The notes beneath the pieces are model-generated. The model made no database searches. It had not been told where the DNA came from and was given only the letters and a program-made list of their open reading frames with translations. From contig JAJEEM010000060.1 in NCBI GenBank assembly GCA_022820995.1, positions 1 to 64,000 on the forward strand: 64,000 nucleotides of DNA, written 5' to 3'. Positions 51,605-64,000 of this stretch are shown here, in pieces (position 1 is the stretch's first letter; each line of letters starts with the position of its first letter). This stretch comes from Gemmatimonadota bacterium (lineage in GTDB: Bacteria; Gemmatimonadota; Gemmatimonadetes; Palauibacterales; Palauibacteraceae). Position numbers and translations under genes: made by a program.

Positions 51605-52414
51605 TCAGGCGGACGCCCGGCGGCGGAGCCATTCGACGGTAAACAGGAGCGCGAGCGCGAACACGATCAGGAAGGTGGCGACCGCGAGGATCGCGGGGCT
51701 GATCTGTTCCCGGATCCCGGCCCACATCTGGCGCGGGATGGTCCGCTGCTCCAACCCGCCCATGAAGAGGACGACGACCACCTCGTCGAACGAGGTCGCG
51801 AAGGCGAACAGGGCTCCCGAGATCACGCCGGGCGCGATCAGCGGCAGCTGTACGGTGCGGAAGGTGCGCACGGGCCCGGCGCCGAGACTGGCGGCGGCCC
51901 GCGTCAGGTTGCGGTCGAAGGCCGACAGCGTGGCGACCACCGTGATCACGACGAAGGGCAGGCCCAGCGTCGCGTGGGCCAGGATCAGCCCCAGGTGCGT
52001 CTGGGCCAGTCCGAGGCTGGTGTAGAAGAAGAACATCCCCGCCGCGGCGATGATGACCGGCGTGACCATGGGCGAGATCAGGAGGCCGGTGATGAAGCGG
52101 CGCGCCGGCATGGCGGGACTCGACAGCCCGAGCGCGGCCAGCGTCCCGAGCGCCGTCGCGAGCAGGGTGGCGGAGACGCCGATCACCAGACTGTTCACGA
52201 GGCCGCGCGTCCACGCCTCGTTCTCCACGATCTCGCGGTACCACCGCAGCGACCACGCCTCGGGATCGAGGCGGAGCATGCCCTCGGTGAAGGTGAAATA
52301 GGGCTCCGCGTTGAAGCTGAGCGGCACGATCACGATGATCGGCGCCACGAGAAAGATGAAGACGCAGGTGCAGAAGGCGAGATAGCCGATGCGGCCGACG
52401 CGGGCTCCGATCAC
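51605..52414 (-). CDS. potC: ABC transporter permease, PotC-like
   Basis: 269 aa, about six membrane helices. The EAA loop is DRNLTRAAASLGAGPVRTFRTVQLPLIAPGVISGALFAFATSFDEVVV, where the glycine after the alanines and the conserved leucine contact the ATPase. This and the segment order fit the PotC/spermidine-putrescine group. It is the last gene of a five-gene operon (ATPase, two binding proteins, two permeases), 16 bases after the PotB-like gene. The symbol is by family resemblance; the substrate has not been shown. Confidence 0.85.
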   Translation of the reverse strand: MIGARVGRIGYLAFCTCVFIFLVAPIIVIVPLSFNAEPYFTFTEGMLRLDPEAWSLRWYREIVENEAWTRGLVNSLVIGVSATLLATALGTLAALGLSSPAMPARRFITGLLISPMVTPVIIAAAGMFFFYTSLGLAQTHLGLILAHATLGLPFVVITVVATLSAFDRNLTRAAASLGAGPVRTFRTVQLPLIAPGVISGALFAFATSFDEVVVVLFMGGLEQRTIPRQMWAGIREQISPAILAVATFLIVFALALLFTVEWLRRRASA

Positions 52415-52430
52415 GGTCGTTCGCCCCCGC

Positions 52431-53657
52431 TCAGCCGAGGCTCATGCGCTCGACGCCCACCAGCCGGTCGTAGAGCAGGTAGAGGACGAGCACGCCCACC
52501 AGCAGAAGCGCGCCGAGTGCCGCCGCGAGCCCCCAGTTCAGCGACGTCTGCATGTGGTAGGCCACCATGTTCGAGATCAGCTGACCGCTGCTCCCGCCCA
52601 CGAGCGCCGGCGTGATGTAGTAGCCGATCGCGAGGATGAAGACGAGGAGCGACCCCGCGCCGACGCCGGGCAGAGTCTGCGGCCAGTAGACGCGGCGGAA
52701 AGCCTGGGCGGGCGTCGCCCCCATCGAGGCGGCGGCCCGCATGTGCAGGGGCGGAATCGACCGCATGACCGAGTACAGCGGCAGCACCATGAAGGGCAGC
52801 AGGACGTGGGTCATGGCCACGAGCGTGCCCGTCATGTTGTAGACCATGGAGAGCCGGCCGTCGTCCCCGACGAGTCCGATCGCTACCAGGAGGTCGTTGA
52901 CCACGCCCTGCGTCTGGAGGAGGACGATCCACGAGGTCGTCCGCACGAGGAGCGAAGTCCAGAAGGGAACGAGGACGAGAGCGAGCAGGAGGCCGGCCCG
53001 GCGCGGCCGCGCGTGCGCGATGAGATGCGCGATCGGATAGCCGAGGATCAGGCAGAAGACCGTGATGGCCAGGCTCACGAGCAGCGTGCGCCACAGGAGC
53101 GGCAGGTAGATGCGCCGCTCCTCCGGCTGCCGCGCGACGGAACCGTCCGCCAGCCGCTGCATGTCCAGCGCGTTGAGGTAGTGGCGGGCCGTGATGCGCT
53201 CGCCGGCCGCGCGGATCGCGTGCCAGGTGCCCGGCTCGACCCAGGCGGAATCGATGGCGGCCATCGCCTCTCGCCACGGACCCTCCGCCACCTCGCGCAG
53301 ATCCCGGCCGGTCCGCGTGAACACGCCGCGCAGCCCGCTCTGGAGCCGGTTTGCCCGGCTGGCCACCTGTCCCAGCGTCCTCGCCTCACGCGCGGCGCCG
53401 ATCTCCCGGGCGGCCGCCTCGTACGCCGCCTCCGCTGGGAGCCCTTCGCCGTCCCAATCGCGCAGCGCCGTGAGCGTCGCGGGCAGGGCGTCCGCGACGA
53501 CCGGATCGTAGACGCTCCTCACGAGCATCGTCCCCAGCGGCGCCAGGAAAGTGACGCCCAGGAAGATCAGGAGCGGCAGAACGAGCCCCATCGCCCGAAG
53601 CCGGTCCCGGCGGCCCGGACCGACCTTCGCGACCCTGCCTCGCCGGCGTGCCGTCAT
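52431..53657 (-). CDS. potB: ABC transporter permease, PotB-like
   Basis: 408 aa. Longer than typical E. coli PotB because of a soluble insert (about residues 55-190, including RTLGQVASRANRLQSGLRG), which I recall as common in several PotB relatives. About six membrane helices follow, with the EAA-type loop MRAAASMGATPAQAFRRVYWPQTLPGVGAG. Partner of the PotC-like protein in one heterodimeric channel. It lies 12 bases downstream of the second binding protein gene. Confidence 0.85.
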   Translation of the reverse strand: MTARRRGRVAKVGPGRRDRLRAMGLVLPLLIFLGVTFLAPLGTMLVRSVYDPVVADALPATLTALRDWDGEGLPAEAAYEAAAREIGAAREARTLGQVASRANRLQSGLRGVFTRTGRDLREVAEGPWREAMAAIDSAWVEPGTWHAIRAAGERITARHYLNALDMQRLADGSVARQPEERRIYLPLLWRTLLVSLAITVFCLILGYPIAHLIAHARPRRAGLLLALVLVPFWTSLLVRTTSWIVLLQTQGVVNDLLVAIGLVGDDGRLSMVYNMTGTLVAMTHVLLPFMVLPLYSVMRSIPPLHMRAAASMGATPAQAFRRVYWPQTLPGVGAGSLLVFILAIGYYITPALVGGSSGQLISNMVAYHMQTSLNWGLAAALGALLLVGVLVLYLLYDRLVGVERMSLG

Positions 53658-53669
53658 CCGATCATCCCG

Positions 53670-54776
53670 TCAGCGCGCCAGCCAGGCGCTGAAACGCTCG
53701 TTCAGCTCATCCTGGTTGTCGACCCACCAGGTCCAGTCCCTCCGCAGCGCGCGCGCCATGTTGGGCGGATGCGTGGGCAGGTGCGGGCCCATCTCCACGC
53801 CGGTCTCCAGGTGAGTTGTGATCAGCGGCCCGGCCGACTCCCGCGCGGGACCGTACGAGATCCTCCGGCCGAGATCGGCGAGCGCATCCGCGGTGCTCGC
53901 GAAGCTCACGAGCCGCATCGCTTCGTCCAGCCTCGGCGTGCCCGCGACGATGGCCAGCTGGTTGATGTCCAGGAGCTGCCCGTCCCAGACGATGACGAAG
54001 GACTGTCCCTCGAGCACCTGCGCGTTGAAGATGCGGCCGTTGTAGGCCGTGCTCATCACGACCTCGCCGTCGGCCAGCATCTGCGGCGGCTGGGCTCCCG
54101 CCTCCCACCAGACGACCTGGTCCTTGATCGTATCCAGCTTGTCGAAGGCGCGACCCAGCCCCTCGGGCGTGCTCAGAACGGCGTACACGTCCTCGGCCGG
54201 CACCCCGTCCGCCAGGAGGGCGAATTCGAGGTTGGCCATGGGCACGCGGCGCATCCCGCGGCGCCCGGGGAACTTCTCGAGATCGAAGAAGTCCGCGATC
54301 GTCTCCGGCCGGGCGCCGGGGAAGCGGTTGGCGTCGTAGGCGTAGATCGTGGACCAGACGACGTTCCCCACCCCGCAGTCGGAGAGGGTGCCGGAGATGA
54401 AATCCTCCTCGGCGGGCGTCCCATCGGGCGCTGGGGGAAGCGCCGCCGCATCGACGTACTCGAGCAGGCCCTCGTCGCAGGCGAGCGTGACGTCCGAGGC
54501 GTTGAGGTCCACGACGTCCCAGTAAACGTTGCCCACTTCGACCTGGGCCCGGATCTGCGCCAGACCGCCGTTGAAGTCCTCGACGTCCACCCGGATGCCG
54601 GTGGCCGCGGCGAACGGCTCGTACCACGCCTCGGTGCTCGCCTTCTGATACGAGCCCCCGTAGGAGACGGCCGTGATCGACTGGGCCGCGGCCTGCCCGG
54701 CGAAACACGTCGCGAGCAGGGCCATGGACGCCGACGCTCGCACTGCCGGGGAGGTCGTCGCCCGGTCAGTTCGCAC
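53670..54776 (-). CDS. Extracellular solute-binding protein, PotD-like, copy 2
   Basis: 368 aa from GTG 54776, overlapping the first binding protein gene by 11 bases. Signal MALLATCFAGQAAAQ. The mature protein begins SITAVSYGGSYQKASTEAWYEPF, and contains DVVDLNASDVTLACDEGLLEY, WWEAGAQPPQMLADGEVVMSTAYNGRIFNAQVLEG and a C-terminal MGPHLPTHPPNMARAL. It is strongly similar to the gene immediately upstream, so this operon has two binding proteins for one channel. The ligand is a small amine or related compound by family. Confidence 0.85.
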   Translation of the reverse strand: MRTDRATTSPAVRASASMALLATCFAGQAAAQSITAVSYGGSYQKASTEAWYEPFAAATGIRVDVEDFNGGLAQIRAQVEVGNVYWDVVDLNASDVTLACDEGLLEYVDAAALPPAPDGTPAEEDFISGTLSDCGVGNVVWSTIYAYDANRFPGARPETIADFFDLEKFPGRRGMRRVPMANLEFALLADGVPAEDVYAVLSTPEGLGRAFDKLDTIKDQVVWWEAGAQPPQMLADGEVVMSTAYNGRIFNAQVLEGQSFVIVWDGQLLDINQLAIVAGTPRLDEAMRLVSFASTADALADLGRRISYGPARESAGPLITTHLETGVEMGPHLPTHPPNMARALRRDWTWWVDNQDELNERFSAWLAR

Positions 54777-55886
54777 GGGTCAGCCAGGCGCTGAAGCGCT
54801 CGTTCAGCGCGTCCTGATTGTCCACCCAGAACTCCCAGTCGTTGCGCAGGGCGCGCGCGGCGTTTTCGGGGCTGGTGGGCATGTGGGGGGCCATTTCGAC
54901 GCCGGTCGCCAGGTGCGTGGTGACGAGCGGTTCGCCCGACCGCCGGGCCGGACCGTAGGAGATCCGGCGCGCGACCGCCGCCAGCGACTCGCCCGTCGTC
55001 GCGAAGCGCAGGAAGCGGAGCGCATCCTCCAGTCGCGGCGTCCCCGCCACGATGCTCAACTGGCCGTAGTCGAGCAGCTGGCCGTCCCACACGATCGTGA
55101 ACGGCTGCTCCTCGAGCACCTGCGCGTTGAAGATGCGGCCGTTGTAGGCGGTGCTCATCACGACTTCGCCGTCCGCCAGCATCTGCGGCGGCTGGGCGCC
55201 CGCCTCCCACCAGACGACCTGGTCCGAGATCGTGTCCAGCTTTTCGAAGGCCCGGTCCAGCCCCTCCGGCGTGCGCAGCACGGCATAGACCTCGTCGAGG
55301 GGCACGCCATCGGCGATGAGGGCGAACTCGAGGTTGACCTGCGGCACGCGACGCATGCCGCGGCGTCCGGGAAACCTCTCCAGGTCGAAGAAATCCGCCA
55401 TCGTCGCAGGCTTCTCATCGGGGAAGAGGTCGGCGTTGTACGCGTAAACCGTGGAATAGAACAGCATCCCGGCCCCGCACGGCCCCTGCATCTCCGCATA
55501 AAAATCATCCCTCGCGGGCGTCCCATCCGGGGCGGGCGGCAGCATGTCGATGTCGATCGGTTCCAGAAGGCCCTCGTCGCAGCCCCGCATCGCATCGGCC
55601 ATTTCGAGGTCGACGACGTCCCAGTGGACCGCGCCGACATCGACCTGCGCCCGTATCTGGGCCAAACCGCCGTTGTAGTCCTCCATCTTCACGCGAATCC
55701 CGGTCTCCTCGGTGAACGGCACCTGGATGCCCCCCTGATACGCCCGGCCGTAGGAGCCTCCCCAGGAAACGGCGGTGATCGCCGGACCCTCCGGGGCCTG
55801 GGGTCCGCAACCGAGCGTGAACGCCGCTGCGGCCGCGAGGACGATGAGCGCCGCATCGCGCGACGTGTGGATGGCGGATCTCCTCT

Positions 55887-55890
<4 letters not shown>
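54766..55890 (-). CDS. Extracellular solute-binding protein, PotD-like, copy 1
   Basis: 374 aa. The ATG at 55890 overlaps the stop of the ATPase gene (ATGA). The signal has a lipobox (AAAAFTLGC), so it is a lipoprotein, unlike copy 2. It shares WWEAGAQPPQMLADGEVVMS, AYNGRIFNAQVLEE and the C-terminal FWVDNQDALNERFSAWL with the downstream copy. Differences include MADAMRGCDEGLLEPIDI where copy 2 has a different ligand-pocket segment. The longer open frame to 56226 lies antisense to nothing and in the ATPase gene; it is a shadow. Confidence 0.85.
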
Positions 55891-57026
<1,136 letters not shown>

Positions 57027-57157
57027 CTGGCGATTCTGCCTTGTTCTTCGGAATATGGAATGGTGATCGGCCCCCGGTCGGGGTGGATCAACTTGAAGCC
57101 GGCGGCGCCAATCCGCGAGTGTATGCGCTGCGGCTGCTTTTGAGCGCAGGAGGTACC

Positions 57158-58201
57158 ATGAAGATCAGGAATCGGACGGCGGGACGGGTCACGTGGGCGG
57201 CCTGCCTGCTCGTGCCCGTAGCCGGGCTCGCGATTGCGGCCGGAGGAGAGCCGGGCGCGAAGATGGACTCGGCCTCCGCCGCTCAGGCGCTCGTCGCCCT
57301 GCTCGACGAGGCGGGGCGGGAGAAGGCGCTCTTCTCCCTCGAGGACGAGGAGCGTTTCAACTGGCACTTCGTCCCGAGGTCGCGGAACGGACTGCCGCTC
57401 GCCGACATGACGACGGAGCAGCGCGGCGCCGCCCACGACCTCCTTCAGGCAGCCATGAGCAGCCAGGGCTTCCTGAAGGCGAGCGCGATCATCGAACTGG
57501 AGCGAATCCTCGGACTCCTGGAAGGGCGGCCCGAGCGCCGGGACCCGGAGAACTACTATGTCGCGATCTTCGGCGACCCGTCGTCGGAAGGGCCGTGGGC
57601 GTGGCGGTTCGAGGGACATCACCTCTCCCTCAACTTCTCATCGCCTTCGGGCCTGCTCACGGTGACGAGCCCGGCGTTCATGGGCGCGAATCCGGCCCGC
57701 GTGCCATCGGGTCCGAAGGCGGGCTGGAGGCCGCTGGGGCGGGAGGAGGACCTGGCCCGGACGCTGATGCGGAGCTTCACGGCGGACCAGCGCGAGCGGG
57801 CGACCATCGCCGCCGAGGCCCCCAGCGACATCCTCACCGGGAACGACCGCGAGGCGCGGCTCGACGCGTTCGAGGGCCTCGCCGCCGACGCCATGACCGC
57901 GGAGCAGCGTGCGATCCTGTTCGAGATCGTGCACGAATACGTCGGGAACACGACGACGGATTTCGACTGGATGGTGCGGGTCCAGAACGAGATGCCGGCG
58001 AGCGACATCCATTTCGCCTGGGCCGGGTCTCTCGATCCCGGCGAGGGACACTACTACCGGGTCCATGCCCCGGCCTTCCTCATCGAGTACGACAACACGC
58101 AGAACGACGCGAACCACGTCCACTCGGTGTGGCGGGACCTGGAGAACGACTTCGGGGGCGACGCGCTGGCGCGCCACTACGAGGAGTCCGACCACCACTA
58201 G
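57158..58201 (+). CDS. DUF3500 domain protein, secreted
   Basis: About 347 aa. ATG 57158 with AGGAGGT upstream opens a signal peptide (VTWAACLLVPVAGLAIA). The DUF3500 pattern is complete: LADMTTEQRGAAHDLL, RRDPENYYVAIFGDPS, WAWRFEGHHLSLNF, SPAFMGANPARV, REEDLARTLMRSF and APSDILTGNDREA. Then FAWAGSLDPGEGHYYRVHAPAFLIEYDN follows. The conserved histidines and aspartates suggest a metal site, but no function is established for the family. Divergent from the ABC operon and convergent with the fusion gene at 58259-60676. Confidence 0.88.
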   Translation: MKIRNRTAGRVTWAACLLVPVAGLAIAAGGEPGAKMDSASAAQALVALLDEAGREKALFSLEDEERFNWHFVPRSRNGLPLADMTTEQRGAAHDLLQAAMSSQGFLKASAIIELERILGLLEGRPERRDPENYYVAIFGDPSSEGPWAWRFEGHHLSLNFSSPSGLLTVTSPAFMGANPARVPSGPKAGWRPLGREEDLARTLMRSFTADQRERATIAAEAPSDILTGNDREARLDAFEGLAADAMTAEQRAILFEIVHEYVGNTTTDFDWMVRVQNEMPASDIHFAWAGSLDPGEGHYYRVHAPAFLIEYDNTQNDANHVHSVWRDLENDFGGDALARHYEESDHH

Positions 58202-58258: not shown

Positions 58259-60676
58259 CTATCGGCCGATGAGTCTCAGGAAGCGGGGATCCTCGCGCAC
58301 GCGCTCGAAGTCGCCCGCATCCGGTAGCGTGCGCCGTCGTCCGGGATTGAGTTCCACCGCCCGCTCCAGGGCCTCGAAGGCGGCGTCTTCGCTTCCGCTG
58401 TCGAGCAGGAGCGCGGCCAGCGTGACCCACGCGTTGTCGTTCTCCGGCGACCTGGCCGAGGCTTCGCGCGCCACCGCCACGGCGCCCTGCAGATCGCCGT
58501 CCCGCCTCATCCGCGAGGCTTCGCGCAGCATCTGACCCGAACGGTACATGTCGAGGACCCGGCGCAGTTCGACGAGCGGTTCGTCGTGGTCGTCCACCCG
58601 GATGTCGACGACGCGGTCGCTGTAGCCGCCGTTGACCCGCGGGGCCACGACGAGGATCGCGCCGGACTGCATGCCGCGCGCGTCGCCGCCGGCCGCCTGC
58701 GCGGCGTCGAGGGCGTCCATGAGCCGTTCCGCCAGCGGGCCGGTGGACGACTCGAACGAGGCCGCCATCGCATCGACGACCTCGGGTCCCGTGAGGATGT
58801 TCCCCTGCGCGCAGTAGTCCACGCCGCACCGGTGGCCCTTCCAGTCGCTCGCGCCGGTGCCGGTCCAGGCGGCCGTCCGTCCCTGCTGGTCGAGGATCGC
58901 GACCTGGCGCCGATCCCGGCCCTCGTCGCTCCCCACCATCATCTCGAGGGCCTCCTCGGGCGAGTACCCGGCCTGGAGGAGCTGGATGCCGATCGCCCCG
59001 TACATGGGGTTCGCCGCGGCCTGGTGGGCGATGATCACGAGTCCGCCCTTCGCGTGCATCGCGCGGTTTCCCGCCCCGAACGCCTTCGACTGCACGCCCA
59101 TCCCCAGTTCGCCGGTCGCGGGATCGCGTCCGATGATCGAGTAGGTCCCGAGGTAGTTCGGGTCGAAGAGGTCGGCCTCTTCGCTGTTCCCGGATGTCGG
59201 GACCATGCGCGGCTCGGGGACCGCCTCGGGCGACGCCCAGGCGCCTCCCAGCGCCCGGTGGACGGCCAGCCTCGCCAGGGCCAGATCCCGTGTCGCACCC
59301 GCCAGCGCCGCCTCGACGTTCAGGAGCGTGCGCAGGGCGTCGAGATAGTCGGTGTAGCCCACGACGCCCGACTCGTACCGCTGCGACTGCAGCTCCATCG
59401 TAGCCAGCGCCTCGTCGCGCTGGGAAGCGAGGAACGCGTGCCGCCGGGTCTCGTTCTCGAAACCGGCGAGCGTGGTTTCGACTTCGTTCACCGCCGTCAC
59501 CACCGTCCGTCCGTACACGGCTGCCGCCTCATCGAAGAGGCCCTCGGCAAGCGCGAGATTATTCCGGAGCCGACCCGCCTGGAAGAGGGGCGCGGTGAGG
59601 TTCGTGATCAGATTCGTGAACCATTGCTGCGCGTTGAAGAGTTCGCCCGCGTCCGCGCTTGCCAGCCCGATGGAACCGGATAGCGAGAGCGACGGAAGCA
59701 GTTGCGCCCGGCGCGCGCCGATGCTGTAGCGGGCCGCGTCGAGCCGCTGGCCCGCCGCCCTTACGTCGGGCCGCTGCAACAGGAGGTCCGCCGGAACGCC
59801 GGCGGGAACGGGATCCGCCGCCAGCTGCGGCGCGAGGGAGTCGGGCAGAATCGCCTCGACATCCTCCCGATAGCCGCCCAGAAGAACGGCCAGGCGAGCT
59901 TCGGCGCTTGTGAGCTGCGTCTCGAGTTGCGGCAGCCCCGCCTGCGTGTTCCTGAGGTCCTGGCGCACCTGGGACAGCGTCCACGAATCGATCAGGCCGC
60001 GATCGTAGCTCGTCGAAGCCAGCGACTCGCGTTCAAGCAGCACGCCCACTGCCTCGCGGGCCAGTTCGGTCTGCCGCCGCAGGCTGACGATGTCGAAGTA
60101 CGTCGTGATGGTCTCGGCCAGGATGCCGATCCGCGCCGCATGGAAATCCGATTCCGAGGCCAGATACTCCGACCCCGCGGCTCGCGCGTCGTTGCGGGCG
60201 CGTCCCCAGAAGTCCAGCTCGTAGGCGAAATCCGCGCTGACGGAATACGTCGTCAGGTCGATTCTGTCCGGGAACACGAAACCGGCGATCGAATCCCCCG
60301 GACCGCCCAGCCCGAGGGCTTGAATCTGCGCGCCGATGCCGGCGTCCGTCGGCGTGTCGGTGTCGGCGACGGTTCCGCTCGCCCCCACGCTCGGGAAGAG
60401 GTCGGCCCGCGCGATGCGCGCCCTCGCGCGGGCCTGCCGGACGCGCGCAACGCCCGCGGCGAGGTCGAAGTTGGAGCCGAGCACGGAATCGACGACGGCG
60501 TCGAGCACCGGATCCCGGAACGTCGTCCACCACTCCAGCGGCTCGTACGCTCCCGGTTGCAGCCGGGCCGTGAAATCGTCCGGCATCTCCGCCACCGGCT
60601 CCGGCAGCGACGGCCCCGGAGCCAGGGAACAGGCGGAGAGAAGCATGAGCGGGGCGGCCCGCATCAATTTCCTCAC
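58259..60676 (-). CDS. Fusion: NodT-type outer membrane factor, DUF1028 domain and TPR
   Basis: About 805 aa. GTG 60676 has GGGAG 6 nt upstream and gives a lipoprotein signal MRKLMRAAPLMLLSAC; ATG 60700 and ATG 60664 are alternatives. Residues to about 478 are a NodT/TolC-type outer membrane lipoprotein: WWTTFRDPVLDAVVDSVL, AYELDFWGRARN, LLLQRPDVRAAGQRLDAARYSIG, and ALGGAW at the usual end. After a 30-residue linker comes DUF1028: TYSIIGRDPATGELGMGVQSK, QLLQAGYSPEEAL, GGDARGMQSGAILVV, DIRVDDHDEPLVEL. The last 85 residues hold TPR-like helices. The outer membrane factor normally joins an RND or ABC pump; none is adjacent. Confidence 0.85.
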   Translation of the reverse strand: MRKLMRAAPLMLLSACSLAPGPSLPEPVAEMPDDFTARLQPGAYEPLEWWTTFRDPVLDAVVDSVLGSNFDLAAGVARVRQARARARIARADLFPSVGASGTVADTDTPTDAGIGAQIQALGLGGPGDSIAGFVFPDRIDLTTYSVSADFAYELDFWGRARNDARAAGSEYLASESDFHAARIGILAETITTYFDIVSLRRQTELAREAVGVLLERESLASTSYDRGLIDSWTLSQVRQDLRNTQAGLPQLETQLTSAEARLAVLLGGYREDVEAILPDSLAPQLAADPVPAGVPADLLLQRPDVRAAGQRLDAARYSIGARRAQLLPSLSLSGSIGLASADAGELFNAQQWFTNLITNLTAPLFQAGRLRNNLALAEGLFDEAAAVYGRTVVTAVNEVETTLAGFENETRRHAFLASQRDEALATMELQSQRYESGVVGYTDYLDALRTLLNVEAALAGATRDLALARLAVHRALGGAWASPEAVPEPRMVPTSGNSEEADLFDPNYLGTYSIIGRDPATGELGMGVQSKAFGAGNRAMHAKGGLVIIAHQAAANPMYGAIGIQLLQAGYSPEEALEMMVGSDEGRDRRQVAILDQQGRTAAWTGTGASDWKGHRCGVDYCAQGNILTGPEVVDAMAASFESSTGPLAERLMDALDAAQAAGGDARGMQSGAILVVAPRVNGGYSDRVVDIRVDDHDEPLVELRRVLDMYRSGQMLREASRMRRDGDLQGAVAVAREASARSPENDNAWVTLAALLLDSGSEDAAFEALERAVELNPGRRRTLPDAGDFERVREDPRFLRLIGR

Positions 60677-60707
60677 ACGCGGTACTCCCGTGCGCGCCAT
60701 CGCGTAC

Positions 60708-61430
60708 TCAGGGCGCGATGCTGAAGCCGAACACCAGGTGCGCGCGATCCTGGTCGGGGTTCAGGATGTACGCGACGCTCACCGGCACGGCGAAGGTTTC
60801 GGTGATCGCGAGATCCTTGCTCGCCGTGACCCCCAGGTTGACCACGGCCGCCTCGTCGGTGCCGTAGAAGTCGCTCTCGCCGCCCACGAAACCCATGTGC
60901 AGCTGCAGTTCGACATCCGCTCCGGTAATCGCAAATGGCACGCCCACCTCCCCGTACAGCACGCTGCTCTCGGTAAGCATGCCTCCGAAGAGGGAGATCG
61001 GGAAGGTCTCCGGGCCCGAGAAGCCGAGCGACAACTCCACGGTGTGGGCCGCGCCGGCCCCGAAGCCCGCGTCGGCGCCGGGCGAGGGGAAGTAGTAGTC
61101 GGTGATTCCGACCGCGACGGAGAGACCGGACTCGGCCGTCACCGTATAGGTCGCCCAGAGATCGTTCTCGTTTGCGTAAGCCCCGGAGTGGGAGATCGAA
61201 TACGAACCCCACGCGCCGAACTCGAGCCCGCCGGTCCCGAAGGTGATCGCGGGCTGCACGGCCATGGATTCGCCGAAGTCGACCCCGCGCCAGACATAGC
61301 GGCTCACGACATCGGCCCCGATGGAGACGGACTGGCCCTGCGCGGGGACCGCGAAGGCGAAGAGGGCGGCGACGGCAACAACGAGCCGGAACCCCCGGAA
61401 CCGGAACGAATCAACGCGGATCACGGGCAC
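60708..61430 (-). CDS. TorF family outer membrane protein
   Basis: About 240 aa. GTG 61430 is preceded by AAGAGGAGAAG and opens the signal MPVIRVDSFRFRGFRLVVAVAALFAFAVPAQGQ; the longer open frame is a shadow. The mature N-terminus SVSIGADVVSRYVWRGVDFGESMAVQPAITFG is typical of the TorF putative porins. Then EFGAWGSYSISHSG and regular amphipathic strands follow to the end. The start lies inside the transglutaminase 3' end. A pore or structural role in the outer membrane is likely. Confidence 0.75.
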   Translation of the reverse strand: MPVIRVDSFRFRGFRLVVAVAALFAFAVPAQGQSVSIGADVVSRYVWRGVDFGESMAVQPAITFGTGGLEFGAWGSYSISHSGAYANENDLWATYTVTAESGLSVAVGITDYYFPSPGADAGFGAGAAHTVELSLGFSGPETFPISLFGGMLTESSVLYGEVGVPFAITGADVELQLHMGFVGGESDFYGTDEAAVVNLGVTASKDLAITETFAVPVSVAYILNPDQDRAHLVFGFSIAP

Positions 61431-62293
61431 GATTCTTCTCCTCTTTCTATGGTGACCCGGGTGCGAAGCATGGACTCCGCGGAACCCCGGAAGACGCCGC
61501 GAGTCGGCGGAACGTCGGCATAGTCGCGCCCCACCGCGACCCGCACATGGCGCTCGTCGCATTGTGTGTCGTTGGTCGGATCGAAGCCGACCCATCCCAT
61601 GCCCGGGAACCAGCTCTCGACCCAGGCGTGGCTCTCGCCCGTCGCCGCGCCGCCGTCGCTTCCGCCGTCCGGCCCCAGATAACCCGACACGTAACGGGTC
61701 GGGATCCCCCATCCCCGCAGGACCGACGCCATGACGTGAGCGTAGTCCTGGCACACGCCCTCGCGGCTCTCGAGGATGCGCTCGATCGGGGAATCCACGG
61801 CGGTCGTACCTGGAATATAATCAAACGACTCGTGGAGCCGGCTCCGCAGGGCCGTGGCGGTCGCCAGCGGATCGTCCCCGCGCTCGAGACCGCAGCTCCC
61901 GATGAAGTCGTCGAGGAGCGGCGAGGAGCGGACGAAACGGCTCGGCTGCAGCATCAGTCCGAGTTCGGGATCGCTCGCCGCGGCGCCGAGCCGGGCCCAG
62001 GCGTCTTCCCCGACCTCGGCGGGCGTCTCCGGGATCGGGCCCACCTCCACCGTCGAACGTCCCACGATCGAGAGACGGCGGTGCTTTCCGGGGCGATCGA
62101 AGAAGTGGCCCCGGTTGCGAAAGGGTCCCTCGAATTCGAAAACGGAGCCGGACGGGTCGGTCTCGAGCGTGAACCCGCGCACGACCTGCCCCCGGTCCTG
62201 CACGGGGTGCAGATAAAGCGTCATGACGGACACGGTCACCGGCGCGCTGTAGACGAACTCGATCTCGTGTTCGATGGCGTAGCTGGCGATCAT
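61421..62293 (-). CDS. Transglutaminase-like protein
   Basis: About 290 aa. ATG 62293 overlaps the alpha-E stop (ATGA); the ORF is open upstream, but that part is shadow of the neighbour. The N-terminal domain starts SYAIEHEIEFVYSAPVTVSVMTLYL. The catalytic triad is in RILESREGVCQDYAHVM (cysteine), ATGESHAWVESWFPG (histidine) and WVGFDPTNDTQC (aspartate). Such enzymes accompany alpha-E and permuted ATP-grasp proteins in a conserved cluster thought to build and process a peptide-like product; the product is unknown. Confidence 0.85.
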   Translation of the reverse strand: MIASYAIEHEIEFVYSAPVTVSVMTLYLHPVQDRGQVVRGFTLETDPSGSVFEFEGPFRNRGHFFDRPGKHRRLSIVGRSTVEVGPIPETPAEVGEDAWARLGAAASDPELGLMLQPSRFVRSSPLLDDFIGSCGLERGDDPLATATALRSRLHESFDYIPGTTAVDSPIERILESREGVCQDYAHVMASVLRGWGIPTRYVSGYLGPDGGSDGGAATGESHAWVESWFPGMGWVGFDPTNDTQCDERHVRVAVGRDYADVPPTRGVFRGSAESMLRTRVTIERGEESCP

Positions 62294-63273
62294 GACGGGA
62301 GCCCCGCCGTCACCGGGTAGTCGACGTACGAGGCCTGGATGAGGCCGTGCAGCGTCCGGCTGTCGCGCGTCAGGGACTCGAAGACCTCCGCGGGCGCCCC
62401 ATCGGGTGAGGGTTCCCCCCCGCCCGGGTCGAGTTCGAGGGCCGCCGCCATGCGGAGCACCATGCGGTGCGGGGGGGCGAGCGGCGGGCGTCCGCCCGCC
62501 GGATCGATTCCCCGCAGCGCGGATCCGATGCGGTCGGTGGCGTAGCGCACGGAGCGGGAGACCTCGGGGTTCCGCATCAGAAAGCCGAGCACGGAACCGC
62601 GGCGCAACGTGAGCGACCGGTCCCGCCGGTAGGGTTCGAAGGCGCCGCACACCCGCAGCAGATCGGCCCAGGAGAGGACGAGGCCGTCGCCGTCCGGCCG
62701 CGCGATCCGATCCCACATGTCGAGCAGCAGGACCTGCTGCTGCAGCCGCTCCACGTAACGGCCGAGTTCGAGAAACCGCCACGCATCGTCACGCGCCATG
62801 TTGGCGTCCACGACGCCGGCAAGGAGCCGGAGCCGGTCGATCGCCTGGCTCACGAGAGCCCCGGGGCCTTCGCCCCAGGCGTCGGCGAACTCCGTCTCCT
62901 GGAGCCAGAGGAACCCCTGGTTCAGGCAGACCCACACCGGCAGGGGCAGCCGGGGCCGGATCTCCCTGGCGTTCTCCCGCGCCATCCCCCAGCACGAGAT
63001 CATCGATGCCGGGTTCGTCGTGTCCTCGACGAGGCCGCCCGTCAGCGTGTAGGCATCCGCGATGAGGAAGGCTTCGGCCTCGTCCACGTCGGCCGGCGCC
63101 TGCGGAGGGGACTGGCTCAGCGCCCGGTATACGACGCGCCACCCGAGGGCGAGTTCGTCGGCGTCCGTATCCACGAGCCGGGTCAGCTGATACTCGAGCA
63201 GACGGGCCGTGTTCTCGGTCCGTTCCGCATAGCGGCCAAGCCAGTAGAAGTTCGCCGCCATCCGGGCTAGCAT
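62290..63273 (-). CDS. Alpha-E domain protein
   Basis: 327 aa. The N-terminus MLARMAANFYWLGRYAERTENTARLLE is the highly conserved alpha-E signature. The rest is helical, with LSQAIDRLRLLAG-like and LVLSWADLLRVCGAF segments. Its function is not known, but it is nearly always beside a circularly permuted ATP-grasp protein and a transglutaminase, as here. ATGA overlap with the transglutaminase gene; 24 bases after the ATP-grasp gene. Confidence 0.9.
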   Translation of the reverse strand: MLARMAANFYWLGRYAERTENTARLLEYQLTRLVDTDADELALGWRVVYRALSQSPPQAPADVDEAEAFLIADAYTLTGGLVEDTTNPASMISCWGMARENAREIRPRLPLPVWVCLNQGFLWLQETEFADAWGEGPGALVSQAIDRLRLLAGVVDANMARDDAWRFLELGRYVERLQQQVLLLDMWDRIARPDGDGLVLSWADLLRVCGAFEPYRRDRSLTLRRGSVLGFLMRNPEVSRSVRYATDRIGSALRGIDPAGGRPPLAPPHRMVLRMAAALELDPGGGEPSPDGAPAEVFESLTRDSRTLHGLIQASYVDYPVTAGLPS

Positions 63274-63297: not shown

Positions 63298-64000
63298 CTA
63301 CTCACGCAGGATCCAGAGGTCCTTGCAGCCTCCGCCCTGGCTGGAGTTCACGACGAGGCTTCCCTTGCGCAGCGCGACGCGGCACAGGCCCCCGGGAACC
63401 ACGTGCTGCTCTTCCCTCCCCTGGAGAACGAAGGGACGCAGGTCCACGTGGCGAGGCTCCAGGCGTCCGTCCACGAAACAGCCCGCCCGGGAAAGGGGCA
63501 GCACCGGCTGCGAGATATAGTTCGCCGGATCGCTCCGCAGGTGCTCCGCGAACGCCTTCCGCTCGGCCTTCGTCGCATGCGGGCCCACGAGCATCCCGTA
63601 GCCGCCCGACCCCCCGACCTCCTTCACGACGAGTTCCTCGAGGTTGTCGAGCGTGTAGGCGAGGCCCTCCGGCTCTCGGCAGAGGTGGGTTTCCACGTTG
63701 GCCAGAATCGGCTCTTCATCCAGGAAATAGCGGATGAGGCGCGGGACGTAGGCGTACAGCGCCTTGTCGTCCGCCACGCCCGTGCCCGGCGCGTTGGCGA
63801 GCACGAGGTTGCCGGCGCGGTAGGCGTGGAAGAGGCCGGCGGCCCCGAGCACGGAGTCTTCCCGGAACGCGACCGGATCCAGAAAATCGTCATCGATTCG
63901 CCGGTAGAGCACGTCGATCCGCCGCAGACCCGCGGCGGTGCGGGCGTACAGCGTCGCGTCGTGCACGACGAGATCCCGCCCCTCCACGAGGTCGACGCCC
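63298..64000 (-). CDS. Circularly permuted ATP-grasp protein, C-terminal part (cut by window edge)
   Basis: The frame is open to the right edge, so the start lies outside the window; about 234 codons are seen. The ATP-grasp part has [57 protein letters not shown] (glycine-rich loop and lysine), and ending [15 protein letters not shown]. This is the DUF404/DUF407 type that likely makes peptide bonds using ATP. It heads, or lies early in, the operon with alpha-E, transglutaminase and TorF. Only the C-terminus is visible, so length and N-terminal domain are unknown. Confidence 0.88.

Follow-up and report, generated by a model that had tools for sequence, protein, structure and literature searches.

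A NodT-type outer membrane lipoprotein joined in frame to a DUF1028 domain in Candidatus Palauibacter

The locus described here raises the question of whether an outer membrane export channel and a hydrolase-like domain can truly form one protein and, if so, how such a protein came into being and what its bearer gains from it. Throughout, the window denotes the whole stretch of 64,000 nucleotides that was analysed.

Domain content and fold of the fusion protein

The original prediction had placed a complete NodT channel, a complete DUF1028 domain and a TPR tail in one frame at 58259-60676. Reading of the open frames of the window revealed a single frame of 813 amino acids on the minus strand, at 58259-60700, with an ATG at 60700. 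The predicted frame was therefore open along its length, but its 5′ limit was not the start of the gene, as position 60676 falls 24 nt inside it. Pfam and NCBIfam matches bore out the predicted domains (Table 1). The outer_NodT profile of NCBIfam (TIGR01845) was matched from position 2 to 459 of 460 with 288 bits (cut-off 210), OEP (PF02321) was found by Pfam in two stretches, DUF1028 (PF06267) covered residues 519-712 with 193/193 profile positions and 218 bits (cut-off 26), and TPR_19 (PF14559) was located at residues 734-787. By eye, the lipobox L(L/F)SAC could be recognized in 11/11 fused proteins. With respect to the linker, the unfused NodT of a relative (G046) has the C-terminus ...GPRMVPAEDSSRLEDPSKTKSQGSK, and PRMVP is also present in two other relatives. 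Judging by its occurrence in unfused relatives, the TPR tail is native to this DUF1028 subfamily and not a new addition.

Table 1. Coordinates of the fusion gene, its parts and neighbouring features in the window
Feature	Position	Strand	Basis or remark
Lipoprotein signal peptide, lipobox LSAC (Cys24)	60632..60700	-	Reading by eye; retained in G015, which lacks the channel core
NodT-type outer membrane factor, residues 1-488	59237..60700	-	TIGR01845, PF02321
Linker, residues 489-518	59147..59236	-	Start resembles NodT's own C-terminal tail (PRMVP...)
DUF1028 domain, residues 519-712; Thr519 is position 1, after Gly518	58565..59146	-	PF06267 full length, model, fold search
Helical TPR tail, residues 713-813	58262..58564	-	PF14559; aligned in unfused orthologues
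Gcw_chp / TorF-type putative porin	60708..61424	-	PF09694; start set by comparison with relatives
Transglutaminase-like protein	61421..62293	-	PF01841, PF08379; start set by comparison
Alpha-E protein	62290..63273	-	PF04168
Circularly permuted ATP-grasp, running past the window	63298..63999	-	PF14403
Second stretch missing next to DUF1028 in G013, which is unfused: DUF3500, ABC transporter ATPase, two solute-binding proteins, others	51605..58201	.	G013 comparison, Pfam

A structural model of the full-length protein was poor (mean pLDDT 59.8, with the DUF1028 part mostly below 50) and too weak to place the domains. A model of residues 505-813 reached a mean pLDDT of 86 and a pTM of 0.85. Foldseek searches with the DUF1028-TPR model returned the DUF1028 structure 2imh first (E about 2e-12), TPR proteins next and, among the weaker matches, HslV (E 0.0033) and proteasome subunits (E 0.007-0.008, probability 0.97, rmsd over 9). 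In the DUF1028 model, strands and helices follow one another as alpha-beta-beta-alpha, with Thr519 just ahead of the first strand. The Ntn-type fold that had been proposed for the domain is thus supported by the model and by 2imh and, weakly, by HslV and the proteasome, matches beyond 2imh being weak. The domain shares its completeness, its fold and a threonine at position 1 with the DUF1028 family (PF06267, solved as 2imh). However, whereas most of the relatives read in the genus and class stand alone and carry a leader, in frames often of 330-430 residues, here the domain lies inside a membrane lipoprotein. A literature search on DUF1028 (PF06267, COG3342) found no paper in the collection searched, and no DUF1028 protein is known to us to have been shown biochemically to act as a hydrolase.

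Inheritance of the fusion and origin of the join

The class sample comprised 295 genomes, 17 from Candidatus Palauibacter, the genus of the window, and 278 others; the host group consists of uncultured, mostly marine bacteria. Among the matches listed, with the best three candidates per genome scored, the in-frame NodT-DUF1028 join was present in 11 of the 17 genus genomes. With the same scoring, under which a distant fusion could be missed, it went unseen in the remaining 278. Six genus genomes are unfused (G001, G004, G005, G012, G013 and G015). This count includes G001, which is uninformative because its entire neighbourhood is missing: DUF1028, the porin and Alpha-E are all absent, and no amidohydrolase match exceeds 59%.

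An assembly or binning artefact that merged two adjoining genes is highly improbable. It is true that the seven fused loci with record names, which belong to the same 11 assemblies and include Candidatus Palauibacter denitrificans and Ca. P. rhopaloidicola, all come from metagenome bins. But the names of these bins form three series (jk18, SB066x and RHO1), the same in-frame join recurs in 11 genomes, the flanks are conserved in 5/5 fused genomes whose flank was read, and linker indels between species are whole codons. Estimates of dN/dS over 55 species pairs (custom script) were 0.087 for NodT, 0.265 for the linker, 0.026 for DUF1028 and 0.247 for the TPR part. Since values are far below 1 in each, the NodT and DUF1028 halves are both under purifying selection. 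A chimeric assembly was rejected on the basis of the replicated join, selection, the conserved flanks and the separate bin series, and the predicted fusion proved to be genuine. The architecture is real, inherited and unusual, and its birth can be traced.

Synteny with the unfused relatives marks DUF1028-TPR as the old gene of the locus. Four genus members carry DUF1028-TPR without NodT in a readable neighbourhood (G004, G005, G012 and G013). Three of these have what looks, by eye, like a signal peptide between a few and about twenty residues before the Thr, and in G004 the domain is joined to a different, apparently exported protein. An amidohydrolase adjoins DUF1028 in G012 and G013 and is one gene off in G004 and G005. 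A stretch of less than 10 kb in G013 holds the amidohydrolase, DUF1028 and the orthologues of three genes of the window, those at 50.4, 49.3 and 48.1 kb, and a further shared gene, which we take to be of the LVIVD type, is found on the far side of the amidohydrolase from DUF1028. The same genes are collinear in the genome of the window, where they flank the fusion and are pushed apart by two inserted stretches. One of these, of about 14 kb, separates the amidohydrolase from DUF1028 and contains the ammonium transporter, ATP-grasp, Alpha-E, transglutaminase, porin and NodT genes, among others, with NodT as its last gene; the second is given in Table 1. Genes in the fetched loci were called with a rough script based on GC by codon position.

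The fusion appears to stem from a DNA block inserted ahead of the DUF1028 gene. Insertion of the block of about 14 kb would have removed the signal peptide of DUF1028; the edge of the block would have met DUF1028 downstream of that peptide, and the join to NodT would have stayed in frame. The original prediction had considered that the two genes might be separate in related genomes and be joined here through a deletion. Relatives that do not belong to the fused clade indeed have separate genes, but their synteny indicates an inserted block, neither a deletion nor a faulty assembly. Loss of pump genes that would have brought NodT against DUF1028 inside one old operon likewise finds no support, since DUF1028 has old neighbours of its own. 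The locus is therefore an apparently clean case of the birth of a gene fusion, in which a neighbour's leader replaced a lost export signal, and the separate, fused and reduced forms all survive among close relatives. The reduced form occurs in one bin (G015), where the first 35 residues of NodT and its tail are kept and the core is gone; the join lies at a short stretch, GAGCCG, that is present at both places in the genome of the window. With signal and tail but no channel core, this gene should make a lipoprotein DUF1028.

Apart from the fusion, two adjoining solute-binding proteins (SBP_bac_8) at 53670-56226 of the window, about two thirds alike and next to one ABC ATPase, are a duplicated receptor.

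The channel half and a candidate pump encoded elsewhere

Like NodT/OprM factors (TIGR01845; OprJ, OprM, CusC, CmeC), the NodT half is complete as a lipoprotein channel and has both OEP halves, and it differs from them in its 295-residue enzyme-like C-terminal extension and in having no adjoining adaptor or pump. Contigs were scanned for relatives with six peptide patterns, and 80 of 101 relatives were kept, a set from which own-genome records may be missing: 7 loci carried NodT with DUF1028, 17 DUF1028 only and 56 NodT without DUF1028. These 56 non-fused NodT relatives, which are 43.6-70.7% identical, head adaptor or adaptor-pump gene runs. The adaptor is downstream in 56/56 and the pump too in 51/56 within the stretch examined; among the remaining five, L233 is cut short and the other four extend about 2.5 kb or more past the adaptor. 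When a related adaptor and pump were used as tblastn queries, no homologue of either was found in the 64-kb window (best E 0.53), in agreement with the predicted lack of an adjoining RND pump or adaptor.

The closest NodTs, 60-70% identical, come from bins labelled Gemmatimonadota, Rhodothermales, Acidobacteria, Latescibacteria and Gammaproteobacteria. A NodT-adaptor-pump operon (L187-L259) is common to bins of these same five groups, some of whose labels may be binning errors, and its occurrence in all of them suggests transfer. The fused NodT is itself likely to be of horizontal origin. The genus's own second NodT (C42) was rejected as its source, being only 45% identical compared with the 60-70% found in other families and phyla.

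A second type of adaptor (59-60% to the query) was present in 11/11 fused genomes and in two of the six unfused ones (G001 and G012). It was not found in G004, G005, G013 or G015, the partial match in G005 being another adaptor type. In the six fused genomes whose stretch was read (G000, G002, G006, G007, G008 and G011), a pump gene follows this adaptor, truncated in G008 and G011 where the contig stops, and a search for a NodT homologue nearby found none. At about 5.0-9.5 kb of L172 (G000:C26), for instance, the adaptor-pump pair stands without a channel gene. The gene trees of the fused NodT and of the second-type adaptor, from which short and stop-holding rows had been dropped, conflict with each other (AU p 0.0004 and 0.0036, for groups picked after viewing the trees), and a looser grouping was not rejected (AU p 0.41). 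Because the trees conflict, the two genes probably did not form one operon, which speaks against the channel-less pair at G000:C26 as the original operon of the fused NodT. A partnership is also weakened by the presence of this adaptor in G001 and G012, which have no fusion, and by a pump frame that is broken in G000 and G002.

Peptidase domains of the C39 type lie on the cytoplasmic side of the ABC exporters that carry them. These exporters, as described in an excerpt of PMC8277102, likewise combine a hydrolase domain and an export component in one protein; there it is a cysteine peptidase within an ABC transporter, whereas here an Ntn-type domain is placed on an outer-membrane channel. A literature search for channel fusions returned general reviews and unrelated papers.

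Readings of the fused DUF1028 domain

We favour, with a probability of about 0.6, the reading in which the product is a true chimeric outer-membrane lipoprotein and its DUF1028 a periplasmic amide hydrolase that is tethered to the outer membrane and uses a borrowed leader. The lipoprotein signal of NodT would carry the entire fusion protein to the outer membrane, where the NodT part would form the trimeric duct typical of such factors. The C-terminal part of OprM-type channels lies in the periplasmic equatorial region, long thought to be involved in adaptor docking (excerpt of PMC8277102). The C-terminus of the duct would hold three DUF1028-TPR units in this belt, just inside the outer membrane. 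DUF1028 would then act as an Ntn-type amide or peptide hydrolase with Thr519 as nucleophile, the TPR tail might bind a substrate or partner, and the role could be nitrogen or peptide scavenging. Export and membrane tethering of the hydrolase would be the essential gain, and the duct is probably still working, with adaptor and pump encoded elsewhere. Tethered export of DUF1028 is most likely the benefit of the fusion, and autocleavage is its serious rival.

The arrangement of DUF1028 in other relatives bears on this rivalry. In one bin (G004, L101:7366-9309), DUF1028-TPR follows a short-chain dehydrogenase (PF00106) that has its own apparent signal peptide. This dehydrogenase is a second, independent N-terminal partner, joined just before the same Thr, and the feature that stays constant across the NodT and dehydrogenase fusions is a seemingly exported partner. 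At L250:3863-5932, two tandem DUF1028-TPR units occupy a single frame behind a SusD-family gene. With Thr1 internal in three arrangements, the domain either frees itself there or needs no free Thr. The internal Thr thus offers a sharp test: either DUF1028 cuts itself, or it does not belong with the classical Ntn enzymes.

Autocleavage, which the original prediction had raised and which we hold as a tentative but substantial alternative, would take place in the periplasm at Gly518-Thr519, as in Ntn proenzymes, and would separate a normal NodT channel from the DUF1028-TPR enzyme. On this view the two would share no more than a leader, and the fusion would be tolerated since the module releases itself. 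This would agree with the Ntn-type fold, with a Thr that lies internally behind NodT, behind the dehydrogenase in G004 and behind a first DUF1028-TPR unit in L250, with a linker that evolves faster than NodT and DUF1028, and with the Gly that precedes Thr in 11/11 fused proteins and also in G015. Thr occupies position 1 in 53/55 family rows of an alignment from which hits below 150 aa, stops, masked letters and exact duplicates had been dropped, and in which many rows are near-identical Palauibacter sequences and 26 are less than 60% identical to the window sequence. On the other hand, the residue before Thr varies across the family (A, G, H, S, T, N and others), and secreted relatives tolerate some residues ahead of Thr, after what appears by eye to be the signal peptide. 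Thr1, Asp17 and Lys33 are named as candidate catalytic residues of Anbu (excerpt of PMC6376114), and this set is absent from DUF1028, because position 17 is G or A in 54/55 rows and position 33 is K in 29/55. Its absence also weighs against the tethered hydrolase favoured above. A different view of the channel is that NodT has become a spent carrier, which supplies the lipoprotein anchor only and exports nothing any more. The lack of an adjoining adaptor or pump, set against the adaptor downstream in 56/56 non-fused NodT loci, is consistent with this, as are the loss of the channel core in G015, which still keeps signal and DUF1028, and the candidate pump frame, which is broken at different places in G000 and G002 (it is intact in G001, G006 and G007). 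We nevertheless find it doubtful. NodT evolves with a dN/dS of 0.087 over the 55 pairs, and G015 also lacks the second-type adaptor common to the 11 fused genomes, which would fit the joint loss of a working system.

The genes upstream suggest yet another reading, in which DUF1028 replaced Anbu as the Ntn partner of ATP-grasp, Alpha-E and transglutaminase, on the periplasmic side. Anbu, an Ntn protein that is reported to be up in nitrogen limitation, normally occurs together with these three (excerpts of PMC5666114 and PMC6376114). Three of the four genes of the Anbu operon thus stand upstream of the fusion on the same strand, with the porin between, and the last gene bears an Ntn-type domain, much as in the operon described in these excerpts. 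The porin ends 7 bp from the fusion gene and lies directly upstream in 5/5 other fused genomes read; an operon is inferred from strand and spacing only. An ammonium transporter (PF00909) precedes ATP-grasp on the contig, beyond the window. No Anbu was found in the 13 genomes searched, each of which gave one Proteasome-family hit. In G006 and G058 the neighbourhood of this hit resembles, by eye, topA-xerC-hslV. An Anbu elsewhere in the genome was rejected on these grounds, a single hit per genome that looks HslV-like in the two neighbourhoods read. Alpha-E was present in three of ten genomes searched (G000, G015 and G058) and absent from G001, G004, G005, G012 and G013, which again would suit a replacement. 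We nonetheless consider replacement of Anbu unlikely. The porin intervenes, DUF1028 lacks Asp17 and Lys33, and the compartments of the trio and of DUF1028 probably differ. In addition, G058, from another Gemmatimonadota family, has a run of ammonium transporter, ATP-grasp, Alpha-E, transglutaminase and TorF-type porin (L267, G058:C2, 7234-12909) without Anbu and with neither NodT nor DUF1028 behind it. The trio therefore does not need them, and its link to the fusion is, as far as examined, particular to the fused clade.

An active hydrolase duct is possible. Its boldest form, in which three Ntn-type units ring the periplasmic belt of the channel at the adaptor dock, trimming or releasing peptides in replacement of Anbu, with DUF1028-TPR as a portable module that has a fixed Thr junction, is a long shot. 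If it held, peptides leaving or entering the cell would be trimmed or released at the export duct, and the module would join exported partners at that single junction.

With respect to the tethered hydrolase that we favour, an amidohydrolase, amidases, an M19 dipeptidase and SusC- and SusD-type proteins are encoded near DUF1028-TPR in single relatives, and these neighbours would fit, without proving, a periplasmic amide or peptide hydrolase.
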